DNA of 64,000 bases from positions 1-64,000 of the forward strand of contig JASMDC010000017.1 of NCBI GenBank assembly GCA_030753015.1. The letters are read 5' to 3'. Made by a program: the position numbers and the translations under genes. Positions 1 to 53,930 of the stretch are shown in pieces. The notes under the pieces were generated by a model. It saw only the letters and a program-made list of their open reading frames with translations. It had not been told where the DNA came from and did no database searches. Source of the DNA: Candidatus Undinarchaeales archaeon (GTDB lineage: Archaea; SpSt-1190; JASMDC01). The stretch's first letter is position 1, and every line of letters starts with the position of its first letter.

Positions 1-32
1 GGGCCGCGTCTGTGAGTCCTTATCCGTTGTAC

Positions 33-284
33 GCCATCCGCGCAGTGGCATTTGTTTCTCTTTGAATGCTTCTATCCTCAGGGGTATATTGGCCAAGGTC
101 CAGAGACAGCTTCGTGTCACCATCAAGAATGTGGTTGCCCCTCCAGACCTCTGATTAAACGCATAAGCCTGTGCCGCTCAGACTGGGCTCCCAAGCTCGA
201 GGTCCAGCAGAAGTATTGATGTACTGGGCAATATCGCTGGGTCGATCCACGCTGGACGACCACGCTACGACACGACGGACGAGC
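33..284. other. Cassette A body, no confident gene
   Basis: This is the 252-nt content of the first cassette. A plus-strand frame stays open from about 52 (TTG codon) to the stop near 217-219, about 55 codons with several cysteines, but it has no ATG, no ribosome-binding site and no recognisable similarity. Cassettes without ORFs are common. No other feature was seen. Confidence 0.4.
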
Positions 285-426
285 GTACAACAACCGGCCT
301 TCTAGCTCCGGGCCGCTGAGACGGCCCTCCGCCCACACGCCCCCGAATATCCTGGAGCCTCGCTGGTTTGAGCTTCGCTACAGATTCGTGTTACGTGGGC
401 GCGATAGAAGGCCTTGACCGTTATCT
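285..426 (+). repeat. attC recombination site 1
   Basis: The R'' box GTACAAC (285-291) is followed by a 4-nt spacer and the L'' box GGCCTTCTA (296-304). The exact complement TAGAAGGCC (405-413) is L', followed by a 6-nt spacer and the R' box GTTATCT (420-426). The 100-nt segment between the L boxes is the variable terminal part; its left half is nearly identical to that of site 2 and its right half differs. Unequal spacers beside the L arms and a total of about 140 nt agree with known long attC sites. Confidence 0.82.
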
Positions 427-712
427 GAAAGCCCCAATATATAATAATGAGTTAATTATTGATTAATAATAGATGACATGGGGAAAGACTAGGTATTTAA
501 CTTTAAATCTCCTATGATAGCATTGCCACCAAGGGTGCAAGGGGAGCTTCACCGTATTTACGATTAGCCAAGCGCCGATGTCTTCCATTCGACTGCCTTG
601 ACCGCTCCCCTTGCATCCAAATCCTTATCATTCATCGTTTATAGAACAATAGTATCAACTTGTTTTGTCGGAGCATTTGTTAGGATAGCCACTTATGCTA
701 GGTGGGGCATAC
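427..712. other. Cassette B body: AT-rich, non-coding, with an inverted repeat
   Basis: The 286-nt cassette has a strongly AT-rich left part (about 435-505, including TATATAATAATG). It also has an inverted repeat with arms 533-547 (GGGTGCAAGGGGAGC) and 604-618, 14 of 15 positions paired, around a 56-nt loop. The only reading frames are about 34-41 codons on the minus strand and look random. The hairpin could be a structured RNA or a relic of another element. Confidence 0.4.
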
Positions 713-855
713 AGATAACAATCGGCCTTCTAGCTCCGGGCCGCTGAGACGGCCCTCCGCCAACACGCCCCCGCGGAGTTTGAACATCGCTTTAGGATAC
801 TTCGCATAAGGTGATCCTGGCGGGTACGCGTCATAGAAGGCCTTGGCCGTTATAC
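713..855 (+). repeat. attC recombination site 2
   Basis: The boxes are R'' AGATAAC (713-719), L'' GGCCTTCTA (724-732), L' TAGAAGGCC (834-842) and R' GTTATAC (849-855). L'' and L' are perfectly complementary over 9 bp, and the R boxes flank them through 4- and 6-nt spacers as in site 1. The left 60 nt are almost the same as site 1, so the two sites belong to one family, as expected in an array evolved with one integrase. Confidence 0.82.
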
Positions 856-880
856 GACAACGTTCCCCAAATGGAAAACC

Positions 881-920
881 ATAAATATACAAACATATAC
901 AAACATATACTTATGTATAC
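881..920. promoter_or_regulatory. Four 10-bp direct repeats: likely antitoxin operator
   Basis: Two exact copies of AAACATATAC (891-900, 901-910) are flanked by the related units ATAAATATAC (881-890) and TTATGTATAC (911-920). Ten-base spacing places each unit on the same helix face. The repeats lie 30-70 nt before the ATG of a ribbon-helix-helix antitoxin and include TATA-like sequence. Such antitoxins usually repress their own operon through tandem short repeats. The operator role is inferred. Confidence 0.6.
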
Positions 921-949
921 AGATGTAAATCAATCTAAAGGTGGTCATT

Positions 950-1189
950 ATGGGAGCTACTACGATCAGGATACACGATGATACAAAGCATGATCTGGAT
1001 CTGTTAAGGGAATATCGGAATGAAAGTTATGATGAAGTTATTAAGAAAATCCTCTTTGTCATAAATACCTACAAGACCGAGCCTGAATTGAGCCAGGAGA
1101 CAATTGATTCGATCGAAAGAGCGAGGAAAAGGATGAAGAAAGGGGATTTCTTATCTGAAGAGGAAGCGAGAAAGAGGCTTGGCCTTTAA
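950..1189 (+). CDS. Ribbon-helix-helix antitoxin (RelB/VapB-type)
   Basis: This is a 79-residue DNA-binding antitoxin. Residues 4-35 give the strand-helix-helix pattern of the ribbon-helix-helix fold (TTIRIHDDTK, then two amphipathic helices). The charged C-terminal helices (about 48-79) are where such antitoxins bind their toxin. ATG 950 is preferred over GTG 941 because AAGGTGG lies just upstream of it. The stop overlaps the start of the relE reading frame, giving the usual antitoxin-toxin coupling. The tandem 10-bp repeats upstream fit autoregulation. The gene is AT-rich compared with the chromosome and sits in an integron cassette, so it was acquired. The partner toxin is frameshifted. 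Confidence 0.75.
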   Translation: MGATTIRIHDDTKHDLDLLREYRNESYDEVIKKILFVINTYKTEPELSQETIDSIERARKRMKKGDFLSEEEARKRLGL

Positions 1190-1442
1190 TGCATGAAATC
1201 AACTTTGATGAGGAAGTAATTGATACCCTCAAGAAATTACCAAAGCTACTAGAAAGAGGATTTTCAATAAGATCGTATCATCTAAAGAGAATCCCTTCTT
1301 GTTCTTTGAGAGATTAAAGGGGAGACGAGATTACAGAATGCGGATAGGGGATTTCAGGGTAATCGCAGATATCGATTCAAATCTGAAGAGGATCCAAGTG
1401 ACTTTGATCGGGCATAGGAAGAACATCTACAAGAGAATCTGA
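1189..1442 (+). pseudogene. Frameshifted RelE/ParE-type toxin
   Basis: Translation from the ATG overlapping the antitoxin stop gives a RelE-like start (MHEINFDEEVIDTLKKLPK) but stops near 1314. The rest of the family continues in another frame: the segment with RLKGRRDYRMRIGDFRVIAD and then IQVTLIGHRKNIYKRI, ending at TGA 1440-1442. One missing base near 1259-1263 (after codons for LLER) explains the break, because adding one base gives a continuous protein of about 84 residues. The Arg/Lys-rich core and terminal HRKNIYKR are typical of RelE mRNA endonucleases. The frameshift is either inactivation or a sequencing error. Confidence 0.72.
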
Positions 1443-1642
1443 TCGTGATAGAACGTCGGTCGCCTAACACAAAGGTATCCAGCTCCAGGCCTCCAGCCTT
1501 CCGCCCACACTCCGACTCATACATTATACGCAATCTGCTTCAGGAGTCTTTGGTATCATGAGATCCATCCTTGCACTTCGCCCTCAGAATCCTTTCCTGA
1601 CACTTCGTCCTTGAAATGGTCGTCATGATAGTCGCTTTCCTT
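1443..1642. other. Junction between cassette array and chromosome
   Basis: This stretch contains the decayed attC (1462-1530) and then about 110 nt with no recognisable feature before the end of the minus-strand membrane-protein gene. Base composition changes from AT-rich to GC-rich across it, so it probably marks the right edge of the acquired segment. Confidence 0.4.
1462..1530 (+). repeat. Degenerate attC-like remnant (site 3)
   Basis: A consensus-like R'' box GCCTAAC (1462-1468) is followed by a segment similar to the left halves of sites 1 and 2 (shared words include AGCTCC and CCGCCCACAC). It ends at about 1523-1530 with TTATACG, which resembles the R' box of site 2. No convincing L' arm can be drawn, and R'' does not match the start of the toxin-antitoxin cassette (GTTATAC), so the site is truncated or rearranged. 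It lies 20 nt after the relE stop, where an attC is expected. Confidence 0.5.
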
Positions 1643-12626: not shown

Positions 12627-14441
12627 ATGAACGCGCATCCAATGCTTGTAATGGAGCCCGCGCTCTCGGTGGACGATCCTTTCGGTGTACTGGAACGACT
12701 GGAGTCCATGGCCTTCGAGCCCTCCGAGTGGCACGACCTCAACCTCGCTGCTCACGGGCTCTCCCTGACGGGACAGTTCGAGCGTGCAGCCATCGTCGAA
12801 CGTGTCAAGCAGAAGATACGCATCCTCCCACACCAGATCGAGACGGCGCTGCGTGTGCTCAATGACCTTGGTCATCGCGCATTATTGGCCGATGAGGTCG
12901 GGCTGGGCAAGACAGTGGAAGCGGGTATCGTGCTCAAGGAGTACCTCGTCCGTGGGCTTGTGGAACGCGTGCTCATCCTTACTCCCGCTCCTCTGGTCCG
13001 CCAGTGGCAGGGAGAGCTCGAAGAGAAGTTCGGTGAAGGGTTCATCACTCCTCTTGACGAGGGGTTCCGTGGGTTCGAGAAGGAGGACCGTCTCATCTGC
13101 TCAATGGACAGAGCCCGTCAGCCCAAGAACGCCCCCTTTGTCCAGGCCCGTCCCTGGGACCTACTCATCGTGGACGAGGCTCATCGTCTGCGCAACGTGG
13201 AGACCAAACTCCACCAGTTCGTGGCGGGGATCGACGCCCGTTACTTCCTAATGCTCACCGCGACACCCATCCAGAACAACCTCTTCGAGCTGTTCAACCT
13301 CATAGACCTCCTCAAACCGGGTCATCTGGGTACGCGGAACCAGTTCGCGGTCTATTTCGTGGGGGACCGTAAGGCACAGACGCTCGAGAACGAGGGGGAG
13401 CTGCGAGAGCTGCTGGGCCAGGTCATGGTGCGCAACCGCCGCGCCGAGGTCGGACTTCAGCTCCCCGACCGACACGTCCACGACATCATGCTTGATCCTT
13501 CTCCCCAGGAGGCCGAGCTGTACCGTCGGGTCATCGGATACATAGCGGACATGTACGACGAGGTGGACGAGGGCGCGGAGTTCGACGCTGAAGAGGCCCG
13601 TCGGACCACCCGTGGTATCGACCTGCTGCGGCTCATGACGCTCGAGCGTGAGCTCGTGTCGTCCAGCCAAGCCCTGGCCGCCACTCTGCGCAAGATAATC
13701 CCGCGCGAGCCCGATCCCGAGAAACGCGTGCTCTTGGACGAGCTGTACGAGCTGTGCCTGTCGGCCCGGGACAGCACCAAGGCTTGCCATCTCTTGGAGC
13801 TCGCTCGGCGCTTGGACACTCCCCTCATCGTGTTCACGCAGTTCATCTCCACCCAGGAGCACCTGCGGGGACGTCTGGAGGCCGCAGGCTTGGCGCCCGT
13901 GGTGTTCAACGGCAGCATGTCACCATCCGACAAGGAGTCCGCTATCCAGCGTTTCAAGGAGCGGGGCGGTGTGCTCCTGTGCACTGACTCGGGGAGCGAG
14001 GGCCGGAACCTCCAGTTCGCCAACGTGCTGGTGAACTACGATCTTCCCTGGAATCCCATGCGTCTGGAGCAGCGTATCGGCCGGATCCACCGCATTGGCC
14101 AGGAACGGGACGTGCATGTGTTCAACCTCACGCTCGCGGGTACGATCGAGGACCACATCCTGACAACGCTCTATCGCAAGATCGACCTCGTCACCGCGGC
14201 CGTGGGCGACATGGACCTTATCCTTTCCAAGCTGCCCGATGGCGTGTCGTTCGAGCGCCGGTTGTTCGAGCTGTCGCTGCGCATCAAGGACAAGCGTTCC
14301 TTCGACGAGGGGATGAAGGGGCTCGCTGATGAGATGGCGGAGGCCAAGGAGCTGGCTGCAAAGGTGCACCAGTTGGATGCCCGGGTGCTCGAGCGCTTCG
14401 ACCTATCGTCCCTGGAGGACGCGGGGGTGCGTATCAAGTGA
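12627..14441 (+). CDS. SNF2-family DNA translocase/helicase
   Basis: The 604-residue superfamily 2 ATPase has Walker A in ADEVGLGKT (about 88-96), DEAH box VDEAHR (182-187), motif III LTATPIQNN, and motif VI QRIGRIHRIGQ in the C-terminal RecA domain. It is of the RapA/SNF2 type that moves on double-stranded DNA to remodel protein-DNA complexes. It lacks the accessory domains of RapA. The next gene starts inside its stop codon (GTGA), so the two products probably act together. Start: ATG 12627, though ATG 12642 is about 25 nt from a TATA-like AATAAAAA and may be the leaderless start. Confidence 0.85.
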   Translation: MNAHPMLVMEPALSVDDPFGVLERLESMAFEPSEWHDLNLAAHGLSLTGQFERAAIVERVKQKIRILPHQIETALRVLNDLGHRALLADEVGLGKTVEAGIVLKEYLVRGLVERVLILTPAPLVRQWQGELEEKFGEGFITPLDEGFRGFEKEDRLICSMDRARQPKNAPFVQARPWDLLIVDEAHRLRNVETKLHQFVAGIDARYFLMLTATPIQNNLFELFNLIDLLKPGHLGTRNQFAVYFVGDRKAQTLENEGELRELLGQVMVRNRRAEVGLQLPDRHVHDIMLDPSPQEAELYRRVIGYIADMYDEVDEGAEFDAEEARRTTRGIDLLRLMTLERELVSSSQALAATLRKIIPREPDPEKRVLLDELYELCLSARDSTKACHLLELARRLDTPLIVFTQFISTQEHLRGRLEAAGLAPVVFNGSMSPSDKESAIQRFKERGGVLLCTDSGSEGRNLQFANVLVNYDLPWNPMRLEQRIGRIHRIGQERDVHVFNLTLAGTIEDHILTTLYRKIDLVTAAVGDMDLILSKLPDGVSFERRLFELSLRIKDKRSFDEGMKGLADEMAEAKELAAKVHQLDARVLERFDLSSLEDAGVRIK

Positions 14442-29151: not shown

Positions 29152-31005
29152 TCACGCCGTGGGGACCGGACCGGACACCACGTCGGTGGTATGCCGTGCC
29201 AGTCGCTTGATCTTGTTGAGGACGTCCTTCTTCTCTTTCCAGACCAGGGCATGCTCGAGCACATCGCTGATAGTGTCCACAGGGATAACCTCGATGAGCC
29301 CCTTCTTGTCATCGTCCAATAGCACGTCCTTGAGGTTGGCGGCAGGGATGAGCACCTTCTGGATGCCTGCCTCGATGGCCGCCTCGATCTTGGATGTGAC
29401 ACCTCCCACGGGGAGCACGTCGCCCCGCACGGACAGGGAGCCTGTCATGGCCACGCTCTGGCGGATGGCGACCTGCTCCAGAGCGGAAACCACGGCAGTG
29501 ACGACCGAGATACTGGCCGAATCACCCTCCACTCCCTCGTAGGTCTGGAGGAACTGGATGTGGACATCGAAGTTGGCGATGTCCTTGCCGAAGTACTTCT
29601 TGATGGGGGCTGAGACGTTCTTGATGGCCTCCTTGGCGATCTCGCCCAGCTTGCCCGTGGCGATGATCCTCGATGATTCGCGGGCCATCGAGGGAGTGAC
29701 GTTGGCGACGATGGGGAGCACGATGCCCGAGTCCCCGAACACCGCTAGGCCGTTGACCTTCCCCACGTGGGTGCCCGTGGAGCGGAATACCTTGTACTCC
29801 TTCTTCTCCTCGATGTACTTGTCGGCGATCTGCTGCTCAAGGGTGCGGGCGAACACCTTGGCCTTTGTGATGTGCGATGGGTCCACGAGGTCGGCGTCCT
29901 CGGACTTGGCGATGTCGCCCGCGGCGCGCACTAGGCCCCCGAGCTCACGGAGCCGGAGGGTGAGGTGGCCCTTGCGGTTGGCCCGCCGACGCGCCTCGTA
30001 GATCACCATCTCGATGGCCGCCTTGGAGAAGTGTGGGATCTTGGCGTCCTTGGTCACTTCCTGGGCCACGAACCGGGCGACCTTCTGCTGGTTCGCCTCG
30101 GTGTCGGGTATGGTGTCGTTCATGTACACCTCGTATCCGTATCCGCGGATGCGCGAGCGCAGGGCAGGGTTCATGGCCTCGATGGTCTTGACGTTGCCGG
30201 CCGCCACGAGCACGAAGTCGCATGGCACGGGCTTGGTGCGTACCATGGCCCCCGACGATCGCTCGCTGCGACCGGTGATGGAGTACTTCTTCTCCTGCAT
30301 TGCAGAGAGCAGGTCGATCTGCATCTCCGGCTTGAGGGTGGCGATCTCGTCGATGAACAGCACGCCCTTGTGTGCGCGGTGGATCGAACCCGGCTCCACG
30401 CGGTCGTGGGCCGGTGTCTCCAGTCCACCTGACTGGAAGGGGTCGTGCCGGACATCGCCCAGGAGCGAGCCCTCGTGTGCACCTGTGGCATCTAAAAAGG
30501 GAGCCTTCTCACCCCGTCTATGGGTGATGAGGAGCTTGGGTACCTTTGACTTGGTCTTGGAGCGCAGGTACTGGAAAGGCACGAACAGCAGGGCGGCGGC
30601 GATGATGCCCGTGAGCAGCTGTCCGGTGAAGAAACCGTACCAGATGAGGCAGAAGATGAGCATGAGGGCGATGAGGTTGCGCAGGGACTCGGTCTTGTTC
30701 ACCTCGTTCTTGTAGGACGAGACGATGAGCTTTCCCTGGCCGGCCTTTACGGTCTTTACGAGAGGCTCGTTGTCGTCCTCTGAGTTGGGGAACACGATGA
30801 CTTCCTCGAGCTCTTCTCGGGAGAGGAGTTCGGCCATCCCCTGGGCCAGCATGGACTTACCGGTGCCGGGCTTACCGATGAGCATGACGTGACGTCGCTG
30901 GAGCGCGGCCTTCTTCATGACCTCCACCCCGCGCTCTTGGCCGATTACCTGCTCGATGATGCCCTCGGGGACCTTGACGTCCCGTGTGGACTCTGGAAGC
31001 TCCAC
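29152..31005 (-). CDS. lonB: Archaeal membrane-bound Lon protease (LonB)
   Basis: The 617-residue ATP-dependent protease has Walker A GKPGTGKS (44-51), two transmembrane helices inserted in the AAA+ domain (about 111-147), Walker B LFIDEI and a C-terminal Lon peptidase domain. The catalytic Ser is S496 in EGDSAS and the Lys is K539 in GVTSK, spaced 43 residues apart as in other Lon enzymes. Length and layout are those of euryarchaeal LonB, which degrades misfolded and regulatory proteins at the membrane. The start is GTG 31005, about 25 nt downstream of TTATAA (leaderless). A tiny membrane protein gene follows immediately. Confidence 0.93.
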
Positions 31006-51554: not shown

Positions 51555-51734
51555 GTGAGAACAGACGAGGTCACAGAATGCTTCTTCTGCATGATCGTAG
51601 AGGACGATCCAGTGCAGACGCCCCTGGTGTGCGATGAGTGTGGCACGCCCGCCTGTTGCGCACGGGGACATATGGAGCACGAGATAGAGGGCGACGCCAT
51701 CCGGCACGTGTGTCAGGACTGCCTCGATGGCTAA
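51555..51734 (+). CDS. 59-residue zinc-finger protein
   Basis: GTG 51555 starts a small Cys-rich protein with CFFC, CDEC, a CC pair, two His and CQDC, enough for two zinc sites; the spacing suggests a B-box/AN1-like cross-brace. TATA-like TTTAAAAG is centred about 31 nt upstream. It overlaps the dphB start by 8 nt, so it is probably co-transcribed with it. Confidence 0.6.
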   Translation: MRTDEVTECFFCMIVEDDPVQTPLVCDECGTPACCARGHMEHEIEGDAIRHVCQDCLDG

Positions 51735-52560
51735 GGGTCAGCTCATCCTTATCGGCCTGGGGCTTTACGATGAGCGAAGCCCGTCCCTTGAAGCTCTAGA
51801 GACCATGCGCTCCTGCACGACACTGTTCGCTGAATTCTACACGGGTCTCATGGCTGGGCTCGATCCCACACGTCTTGAAGAGCTCGTGGGTGGACCTATC
51901 GAAGTGCTCAGCCGCGAGGAGGTAGAGTCACGGGCGGAGCGGATAATCGAGGCCTCCGCGAAGGGTGATGTGGGATTCCTGGTCCAAGGGGACCCCATGG
52001 TCGCCACGACACATCCTGACCTGAGATTGCGGGCCCATGCGGAGGGTGTCGCTACCCGTGTTGTGCACGGCGCCTCCATCTACTCGGCAGTTGGAGTGAC
52101 GGGGCTTCAGCTCGTGCGGTTCGGCAAGGCGGGTTCCGTACCTTTTCCCCATCCCAGCTACCTTCCCACTTCGCCGCTCGAGGTGGTCCACCAGAACCTT
52201 GAGCGGGACTGCCATACCCTGCTGGTCATGGACATAGTGGCGGACGAGGGACGCTACATGACCGCTAACGAGGGCATGGACACTCTCATGACTATGGAAC
52301 GTCGACTTGCGGAGCGGCGGAGTGGCCCGCTTCCGGACGGTGCTCCTCGGATCGATGGTGACTCCCTGATGATAGCCCTGGCCCGGGCCGGATCCCCGGA
52401 GCCCGTGGTGCGGGCCGGCCCCCTCCGGACGCTGCAGAGGGAGGACATCGGCCCACCGCCTCATCTGCTCGTGGTCCCCGCCAAGCTCCATTACATGGAG
52501 GCGGCCTACCTCCACGCCTTCGCCGGACTGCCGGCGGAGCTCGTCCCCGATGAGGGGTGA
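51727..52560 (+). CDS. dphB: Diphthine synthase (DphB)
   Basis: The 277-residue SAM-dependent methyltransferase makes the diphthine intermediate of diphthamide on elongation factor 2. Family features are LILIGLGLYDERSPSLEALE at the N-terminus, FLVQGDPMVATTH (SAM binding, about 80-92), and the HGASIYSAVG segment. Length and order match archaeal and eukaryotic Dph5/DphB. ATG 51727 overlaps the zinc-finger gene. Confidence 0.92.
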   Translation: MAKGQLILIGLGLYDERSPSLEALETMRSCTTLFAEFYTGLMAGLDPTRLEELVGGPIEVLSREEVESRAERIIEASAKGDVGFLVQGDPMVATTHPDLRLRAHAEGVATRVVHGASIYSAVGVTGLQLVRFGKAGSVPFPHPSYLPTSPLEVVHQNLERDCHTLLVMDIVADEGRYMTANEGMDTLMTMERRLAERRSGPLPDGAPRIDGDSLMIALARAGSPEPVVRAGPLRTLQREDIGPPPHLLVVPAKLHYMEAAYLHAFAGLPAELVPDEG

Positions 52561-52622: not shown

Positions 52623-52871
52623 ATGGCCCAGGGACAGACGATGAACATGACGTTCTTGCTCTATCTCGCTGCCTTCCTGCTGTTGCTAAGGGGTGGGTTC
52701 TATGATATCGTGGCCGGTTCCCTAGGTATCTTTCATGTCCGTAGTGCTCATCCTCGCAATGGATCTGTACAGCGTGGTGTTCCTGATCCTACGACAGCGA
52801 AGGTCGGATGCACAGGGCCCTACGAAAGAAGGACCACCCGGCTGGCCTCCTGCTCGTCCTTGATCTCGTAG
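52623..52871 (+). CDS. Small membrane protein, possibly frameshifted
   Basis: ATG 52623 opens a frame with a clear transmembrane helix (about 9-24, TFLLYLAAFLLLLRGGFYD), but its last ~40 residues look like out-of-frame sequence and overlap the 3' end of taw1. Another frame holds ATG 52735 to stop 52863 (42 codons) with its own hydrophobic helix (SVVLILAMDLYSVVFLIL). Either there are two tiny overlapping proteins or one two-helix protein split by a frameshift between about 52695 and 52735. The RGGFYD motif occurs in small archaeal membrane proteins. Confidence 0.4.
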   Translation: MAQGQTMNMTFLLYLAAFLLLLRGGFYDIVAGSLGIFHVRSAHPRNGSVQRGVPDPTTAKVGCTGPYERRTTRLASCSSLIS

Positions 52872-53731
52872 CCGGTCGCTTTCGCGATCCGCTTGGCGAA
52901 GTCCTTTACCTCTTGATGGGACGGCATGGCCTCGCGGGGAAGACGTTTGCGGGAAAAACCCACATGCATGTATGACTTACACTCGATATAGGTCGGTTCG
53001 GCCTTCTTGATGAGCTGGGCGTAGCCCTCGGGATTGGTCATGTTATGTCCCTTGACCAAGGTGAGCCTGATGACCGTCCTGCAGCGGAACGACGGGAGCT
53101 TCTCGAGGCTCTCGTTCAGCCGGTCCCAGGAAGAAGCGTCCATGGGCCTGTCCATGGCAAGGTACCGTTCACGGTCAGGGGCGTCGAGGGATATGTAGAG
53201 CTGGGTCGGTTCCGTGAACGTGGGGAGCCGGTCCGGCCGAGTGCCGTTCGTGACCAGAAATGTAGTGATCCCGCGGTTGTGGAACTCGAATATGAGGTCG
53301 TCGATCCGGCTGTAGAGTGTGGGCTCGCCCGCAAGTGAGATGGCGGCGTTGCGGGGGCTGAACGACTCCTCCAAACGGTCCTTATCGACTTCGTCAAGTC
53401 CTTTGAACCCTATGAGCAGCTTGCGCTGGGCGGCTATCGCTCCGTCCACGATGTCCTTGGGCTCGTCCACATCCTCGTCCATCTCACCCCCCAGTGTGTT
53501 CTCCACGGGGCGCCAGCAGAGGAGACATTGGTGGTTGCACCACCCGACCGCAGGGGTCATCTGGAGGCAGCGGTGGCTCTCGATCCCGTAGAATTTCTGC
53601 TTGTAGCACACTCGACCTTCTCGAATCGAGCGTTTCGTCCAGTGGCAGGTCTTGACCGCTGAGTGCTTGCCGATCACCGCGTAATGGTGCTTGATGAGCA
53701 GTTCACGAAGCTCGGGGGTGAGCTCGGGCAT
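52820..53731 (-). CDS. taw1: tRNA 4-demethylwyosine synthase (Taw1/TYW1)
   Basis: The 303-residue radical SAM enzyme forms the tricyclic base of wyosine derivatives at G37 of tRNA-Phe from pyruvate. Two clusters are readable: C65, C69 and C72 (CNHQCLLC) for the radical SAM cluster, and C29, C42 and C55 for the second 4Fe-4S cluster; the 13/13/10/4/3 spacing is that of Taw1. ATG 53731 is chosen; the open frame to 53863 is low-complexity Pro/Arg. Wyosine synthesis is restricted to archaea and eukaryotes. Confidence 0.93.
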   Translation of the reverse strand: MPELTPELRELLIKHHYAVIGKHSAVKTCHWTKRSIREGRVCYKQKFYGIESHRCLQMTPAVGWCNHQCLLCWRPVENTLGGEMDEDVDEPKDIVDGAIAAQRKLLIGFKGLDEVDKDRLEESFSPRNAAISLAGEPTLYSRIDDLIFEFHNRGITTFLVTNGTRPDRLPTFTEPTQLYISLDAPDRERYLAMDRPMDASSWDRLNESLEKLPSFRCRTVIRLTLVKGHNMTNPEGYAQLIKKAEPTYIECKSYMHVGFSRKRLPREAMPSHQEVKDFAKRIAKATGYEIKDEQEASRVVLLS

Positions 53732-53744
53732 GATATCTTGGGGT

Positions 53745-53930
53745 GGAGGGCACACTTTTGAATGTTTGGAAAACTGGGCAGAACAAGGCAGCGGCGAGCG
53801 CGTGACCGGCGCCCGCCGCCGCGGGTTGGGAGGGGGAGGGAGCAAAGCTCCCGGACGGACCATCGTCGCCTTCCCCTACGGGCGACTCCCCTTCAGCGCG
53901 GACTGCCAGCACGCTTTCGGGGGTCCTTGA
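53745..53930. other. GC-rich structured intergenic segment, candidate ncRNA
   Basis: The segment holds several strong inverted repeats: GCGGCG with CGCCGC (about 53790-53820), GGGAGC-AAA-GCTCCC (53838-53852) and GTCGCC with GGCGAC around a 10-nt loop (53865-53886). A short T-run follows on the plus strand (53935-53939). GC content is higher than in neighbouring genes and no frame is convincing. It could be a structured RNA (strand uncertain) or the leader of taw1. It does not show the conserved bases of RNase P or SRP RNA. Confidence 0.35.

Follow-up and report, generated by a model that had tools for sequence, protein, structure and literature searches.

Integrons are platforms that collect mobile gene cassettes, which are captured at an attI site and stored in tandem, separated by attC sites with an R''-L''-L'-R' box anatomy. 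In the classical systems, such as the class 1 integron with IntI1 and the Vibrio superintegrons, the integrase belongs to the IntI type, which is distinguished by an additional insert (I2) known to read an extrahelical base of the folded attC (PMC4792948). Integrons in archaeal chromosomes were first reported in 2022, with integrases described as carrying the IntI-specific domain, attI immediately downstream of the integrase gene and small cassettes rich in toxin-antitoxin (TA) genes; many of the archaeal arrays are CALINs without an integrase (PMC9668308). I2 is treated as the feature that made integrons possible, and its origin has been called a chicken-and-egg paradox, namely how I2 was selected without attC, and attC without I2 (PMC4792948). 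Here we analyze a cassette array from an archaeon whose likely integrase is a XerA-like tyrosine recombinase lacking I2.

An archaeal chromosomal cassette array

The analyzed stretch (hereafter the window) comprises the first 64,000 nucleotides of contig JASMDC010000017.1 (C26) from the draft genome of a Candidatus Undinarchaeales archaeon (GTDB lineage Archaea; SpSt-1190; JASMDC01; assembly GCA_030753015.1). This genome is 3.85 Mb in size, while the other nine genomes of its class available for comparison are 0.6-1.1 Mb. The initial annotation recognized an integron cassette array in an archaeal chromosome at the left end of the window, and our analysis supports this interpretation. The relevant features are:

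1..32 (+), right end of an attC cut by the contig start, whose R' box GTTGTAC at 26-32 opens cassette 1
27..420 (+), cassette 1, with no convincing gene, including its attC
285..426 (+), attC 1 (R'' 285-291, R' 420-426)
421..849 (+), cassette 2, with no convincing gene and an inverted repeat (533-547/604-618), including its attC
713..855 (+), attC 2 (R'' 713-719, R' 849-855)
850..1565 (+), cassette 3, a toxin-antitoxin cassette closing the array
941..1189 (+), antitoxin-like ORF
1189..1442 (+), ParE/RelE-like toxin gene split over two frames (1189-1317, 1299-1442)
1462..1565 (+), degenerate terminal attC, with R'' GCCTAAC and CCACACTCC kept and R' lost
29152..31005 (-), archaeal-type LonB protease
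51727..52560 (+), diphthine synthase Dph5, an archaeal/eukaryal marker
52820..53863 (-), 4-demethylwyosine synthase TYW1, an archaeal/eukaryal marker

The two complete attC sites, which are 428 bp apart, share left halves (289-345 / 717-773) that are 96% identical and right halves (399-424 / 828-853) that are 88% identical, but differ in the middle, and their L boxes GGCCTTCTA/TAGAAGGCC pair perfectly. As proposed in the initial annotation, the start and end boxes match exactly in both of the first two cassettes (GTTGTAC 26-32 / GTACAAC 285-291, and GTTATCT 420-426 / AGATAAC 713-719). Beyond the degenerate third site the chromosome continues with genes on the other strand. The initial annotation had also suggested that the integrase and further cassettes may lie just left of position 1; however, the window starts at base 1 of the contig and nothing lies further left in the assembly. 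Its claim that one cassette carries a TA pair is only partly right: the antitoxin-like ORF was recovered with DUF7557 (E 4e-4) and VAPB_antitox (E 0.005), both below the Pfam cut-off, whereas the toxin is split, with its second piece matching ParE (PF05016, E 0.0026, below the cut-off). Further along the window (12627-14441) we noticed a SNF2-type helicase related to DrmD of DISARM, well below the family cut-off.

Rfam has no attC family and gave no hit. We used the window attC to find copies in the same genome and aligned twelve sites on the bottom strand, obtaining a consensus fold with 26 pairs, 11 of which show compensatory changes, in the L boxes, the central stem and a side hairpin; attC 1 was also folded on its bottom strand. 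A covariance model built from this family (R1) finds 26 attC sites on eight contigs of the genome (C26, C53, C87, C29, C23, C82, C70 and C24). It recovers attC 1 with 128.5 bits (E 1.5e-30) and attC 2 with 113.5 bits, though both were in the training set, and the degenerate terminal site with 17.2 bits (E 0.58). Of 11 cassettes with both ends readable, 6 have exactly matching start and end boxes (permutation p 4e-5). TA genes dominate the cassettes that could be read, as in the archaeal integrons described earlier (PMC9668308). The same contig encodes LonB (TIGR00764, 890.6 bits, cut-off 516.6), Dph5 (TIGR00522, 259.4 bits, cut-off 114.3) and TYW1 (TIGR03972, 426.4 bits, cut-off 317.95), which confirms that it is archaeal.

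The likely integrase lacks the I2 insert

The initial annotation had called for a tyrosine recombinase with the integron-specific insert, but none was found in this genome, which is 98.9% complete. The IntI model (TIGR02249) hits only enzymes in which model positions 181-233 are missing, namely two enzymes in tandem at the start of contig C31 (C31A and C31B), a copy on contig C76 with an in-frame TAG, and a remnant on contig C53. C31A and C31B, which are diverged (49% identical; 2-1081 and 1438-2571 of the C31 locus L017), score 234.1 and 220.4 bits against the IntI model, below its cut-off of 265 bits, and score highest to XerA_Arch (NF040815; 237.7 and 224.7 bits, cut-off 220). Alignment to IntI4 (2A3V) shows that about 42 residues are absent. 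A stretch upstream of the integrases is conserved between C76 (about 1940-2290 of its locus L018) and C31 (about 1095-1440 of L017), and is a possible promoter or regulatory region. A single in-frame TAG is found both in the C76 enzyme (L018, 915-2009) and in an I2-less integrase from a different archaeal genome (L166, contig C121 of genome G244, 936-1979), suggesting either inactivation or TAG being read as an amino acid.

On C53 the integrase remnant is followed by a TA pair, an attI-like site with the core ATGCACTAGTTAGAC, a cassette ending in GTCTAAC (an exact match), and further cassettes including an attC 83% identical to that of the window. The attI core ATGCACTAGTTA is also found on C76, which shows the same order up to this core and then ends; the C53-C76 attI rests on two sites. 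As the TA pair sits between integrase and attI in both platforms (L014, 12865-13475; L018, 370-860), it belongs to the fixed part rather than to a cassette.

I2-less integrases and cassette arrays in other genomes

A scan of named genomes returned 80 relatives, and all 77 that could be measured have 65-73 residues between the GKG and HxLRH motifs, as against 106-108 in IntI controls. As R1 reaches few distant attCs (2 hits in 80 relative loci), we devised a generic detector that looks for AAC...GTT with a complementary L stem; its raw counts alone separate poorly, and only the added criterion of box matching discriminates. It finds 16 box-matched attC pairs in 251 kb downstream of these genes and none in 484 kb upstream. 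Likewise, attI-attC matches occur downstream in 20 of 51 loci and upstream in 2 of 78 (p 7e-8; stem threshold 9), or in 24/51 and 5/78 at threshold 8. About 60% of the relative loci show no match, owing to short flanks, detector sensitivity, or because they are not integron integrases. Contigs end within 500 bp downstream of the gene in 27/81 cases and upstream in 4/81, as repeat arrays would cause. As a positive control, 64 I2-bearing IntIs from viral contigs show the known mirror layout, with matches on the divergent side (15/48) and few downstream (2/63).

Examples with cassette chains include loci from Clostridiales (L025, L035), the complete genome of Clostridium sp. OS1-26 (L040), Bacteroidetes (L081, L093, L094) and Spirochaetales (L085), and a closed Chryseobacterium plasmid with a group II intron in its array (NZ_CP041688; chain GTTATAC/GTATAAC, GTTACCT/AGGTAAC). 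A second archaeal genome (G262) has the full-length enzyme, attI (GTTAGCT) and attC (AGCTAAC) around a methyltransferase-like cassette. Judged by reading alone, the first genes behind attI in two loci look like defence systems, with a PAPS-reductase-like gene and neighbours in L024 (5600-8400), and a methyltransferase-like gene plus a possible restriction gene in L165 (2030-4420). Of 15 genomes with I2-less integrons that were tested, 13 have no IntI over the cut-off, whereas G400 (L085, Spirochaetales) and G406 (L050, Gemmatimonadetes) also hold a true IntI (387 and 331 bits).

The attC sites also differ in their anatomy. With one scoring scheme for both sets, a one-base bulge improves the L stem in 60 of 65 attCs of I2-bearing integrons but in only 10 of 52 of the I2-less ones (p 1e-16). 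Conversely, the spacer on the R' side is 2-3 nt longer in 37 of 50 I2-less attCs as against 5 of 65 classical ones. In the present genome 6 of 11 sites have an offset of +2 and 4 of 11 gain from a bulge. Given that I2 reads the extrahelical base, the two absences fit each other.

Many I2-less enzymes additionally carry about 65 extra N-terminal residues (FxYxxxxIxxIKxIxGRxWxxxxKxWxxP). The predicted structure, for which the Methanophagales relative L023 was used (pLDDT 91), resembles the DNA recognition domains of T4 UvsW, XPB and SMARCAL1 HARP, though the scores are moderate (Foldseek E 0.011-0.015, prob 0.97-1.00; VIA Z 8.1, 1.9 A over 60 residues for UvsW). The domain is not universal, as L094 has a cassette chain without it, and a simple motif proved too crude to count its presence exactly. 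In phylogenetic trees 18 IntIs form one clade (100/100), with the C31 enzymes as its nearest neighbours (98/94) and XerA outside. However, a single clade of all I2-less enzymes is not rejected by the AU test on a smaller tree (p 0.475), and we accordingly do not claim that IntI is nested within the I2-less enzymes.

A proposed mechanism and alternative interpretations

Based on these observations we propose, with good though not complete confidence in the absence of a recombination assay, that the window opens at the distal end of an archaeal chromosomal integron, whose integrase is a XerA-like tyrosine recombinase without I2, often with the extra N-terminal domain. It is transcribed towards its array, and in most matched loci attI lies about 30-200 bp (most often about 100 bp) downstream of the gene. 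We infer that the recombinase cuts between G and TT in both attI and attC, that attC is recognized as a folded hairpin, and that strand polarity comes from the asymmetric central spacer rather than from an extrahelical base. The N-terminal domain may grip the folded site. It should be noted that the window array and the intact integrases lie on different contigs, with only C53 joining an attI, attCs and a (broken) integrase, and that no archaeal marker was seen in the first 20 kb of C31.

An alternative is that these are ordinary cassettes mobilized by a classical IntI, either present but not assembled or supplied in trans, with the XerA-like recombinases being unrelated neighbours. The existence of archaeal CALINs and the true IntIs of G400 and G406, which could act in trans, are compatible with this. 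Nevertheless, we consider it unlikely because no IntI over the cut-off was found in this genome or in 13 of 15 others, several of them complete or near complete, attI-attC matching is specific to the downstream side of the I2-less gene, and the attCs mostly lack the base read by I2. A search for IntI over 394 archaeal genomes was also silent, but as its controls were likewise silent we do not claim absence from it. Bacterial contamination of an archaeal bin appears very unlikely: the draft has an estimated 5% contamination and relatives of the integrase occur in many bacteria, but LonB, Dph5 and TYW1 lie on the same contig as the array, and other archaeal genomes have full-length relatives, one with attI and attC. 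A MITE or other dispersed inverted-repeat family, despite the several copies with strong inverted repeats, is refuted by the box matching; the consistent orientation within arrays and the attI linkage also speak against it.

More tentatively, and perhaps somewhat less likely than not, there might be a second, widespread class of integrons in archaea, Clostridia, Bacteroidetes and Spirochaetes that works without I2 and, in most sites, without extrahelical bases in attC, using spacer asymmetry and often a branched-DNA-recognition domain instead, and which represents the ancestral state from which classical IntI integrons arose, so that attC cassettes came before I2. Integrons whose enzymes lack I2 and whose attCs mostly lack the matching base would offer a natural answer to the above-noted paradox. 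They would also explain why Firmicutes and Bacteroidetes seem to have almost no complete integrons but scattered CALINs (PMC9024848), as searches demanding the IntI-specific profile would not count this integrase, and the cassette pool open to archaea and anaerobic bacteria would be much larger than counted.

Comparison with known systems

Archaeal integrons are already known, whereas we found no report of I2-less integrons beside arrays in the literature searched, which excluded preprints and most subscription journals. The system described here shares with the archaeal integrons of Ghaly et al. (PMC9668308) the attC arrays on archaeal chromosomes, the small TA-rich cassettes and the attI downstream of the integrase gene, but differs in that its integrases lack the IntI-specific domain. 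With classical integrons it shares the GTT boxes, the R/L box anatomy, tandem cassettes, attI and box matching between cassette ends; it differs in lacking I2, in an integrase pointing towards the array instead of away from it, in L boxes mostly without an extrahelical base, in the +2/+3 spacer asymmetry and often in the N-terminal domain. XerA (NF040815, annotated as site-specific tyrosine recombinase/integron integrase) is the best family match and likewise has no insert in the catalytic domain, but it resolves chromosome dimers, lacks the N-terminal domain and is not known to work on attI/attC arrays. The study defining an integron-like subgroup of tyrosine recombinases (Smyshlyaev et al. 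2021, PMC8138268) calls the insertion essential for integron function and, as far as we could determine, does not link insert-less members to cassette arrays. Finally, CTXphi and other IMEX elements using XerCD are reminiscent of the present system in that a Xer-type enzyme without I2 acts on folded single-stranded DNA (PMC4792948), but theirs is a phage integration with no cassettes, no attI and no array.
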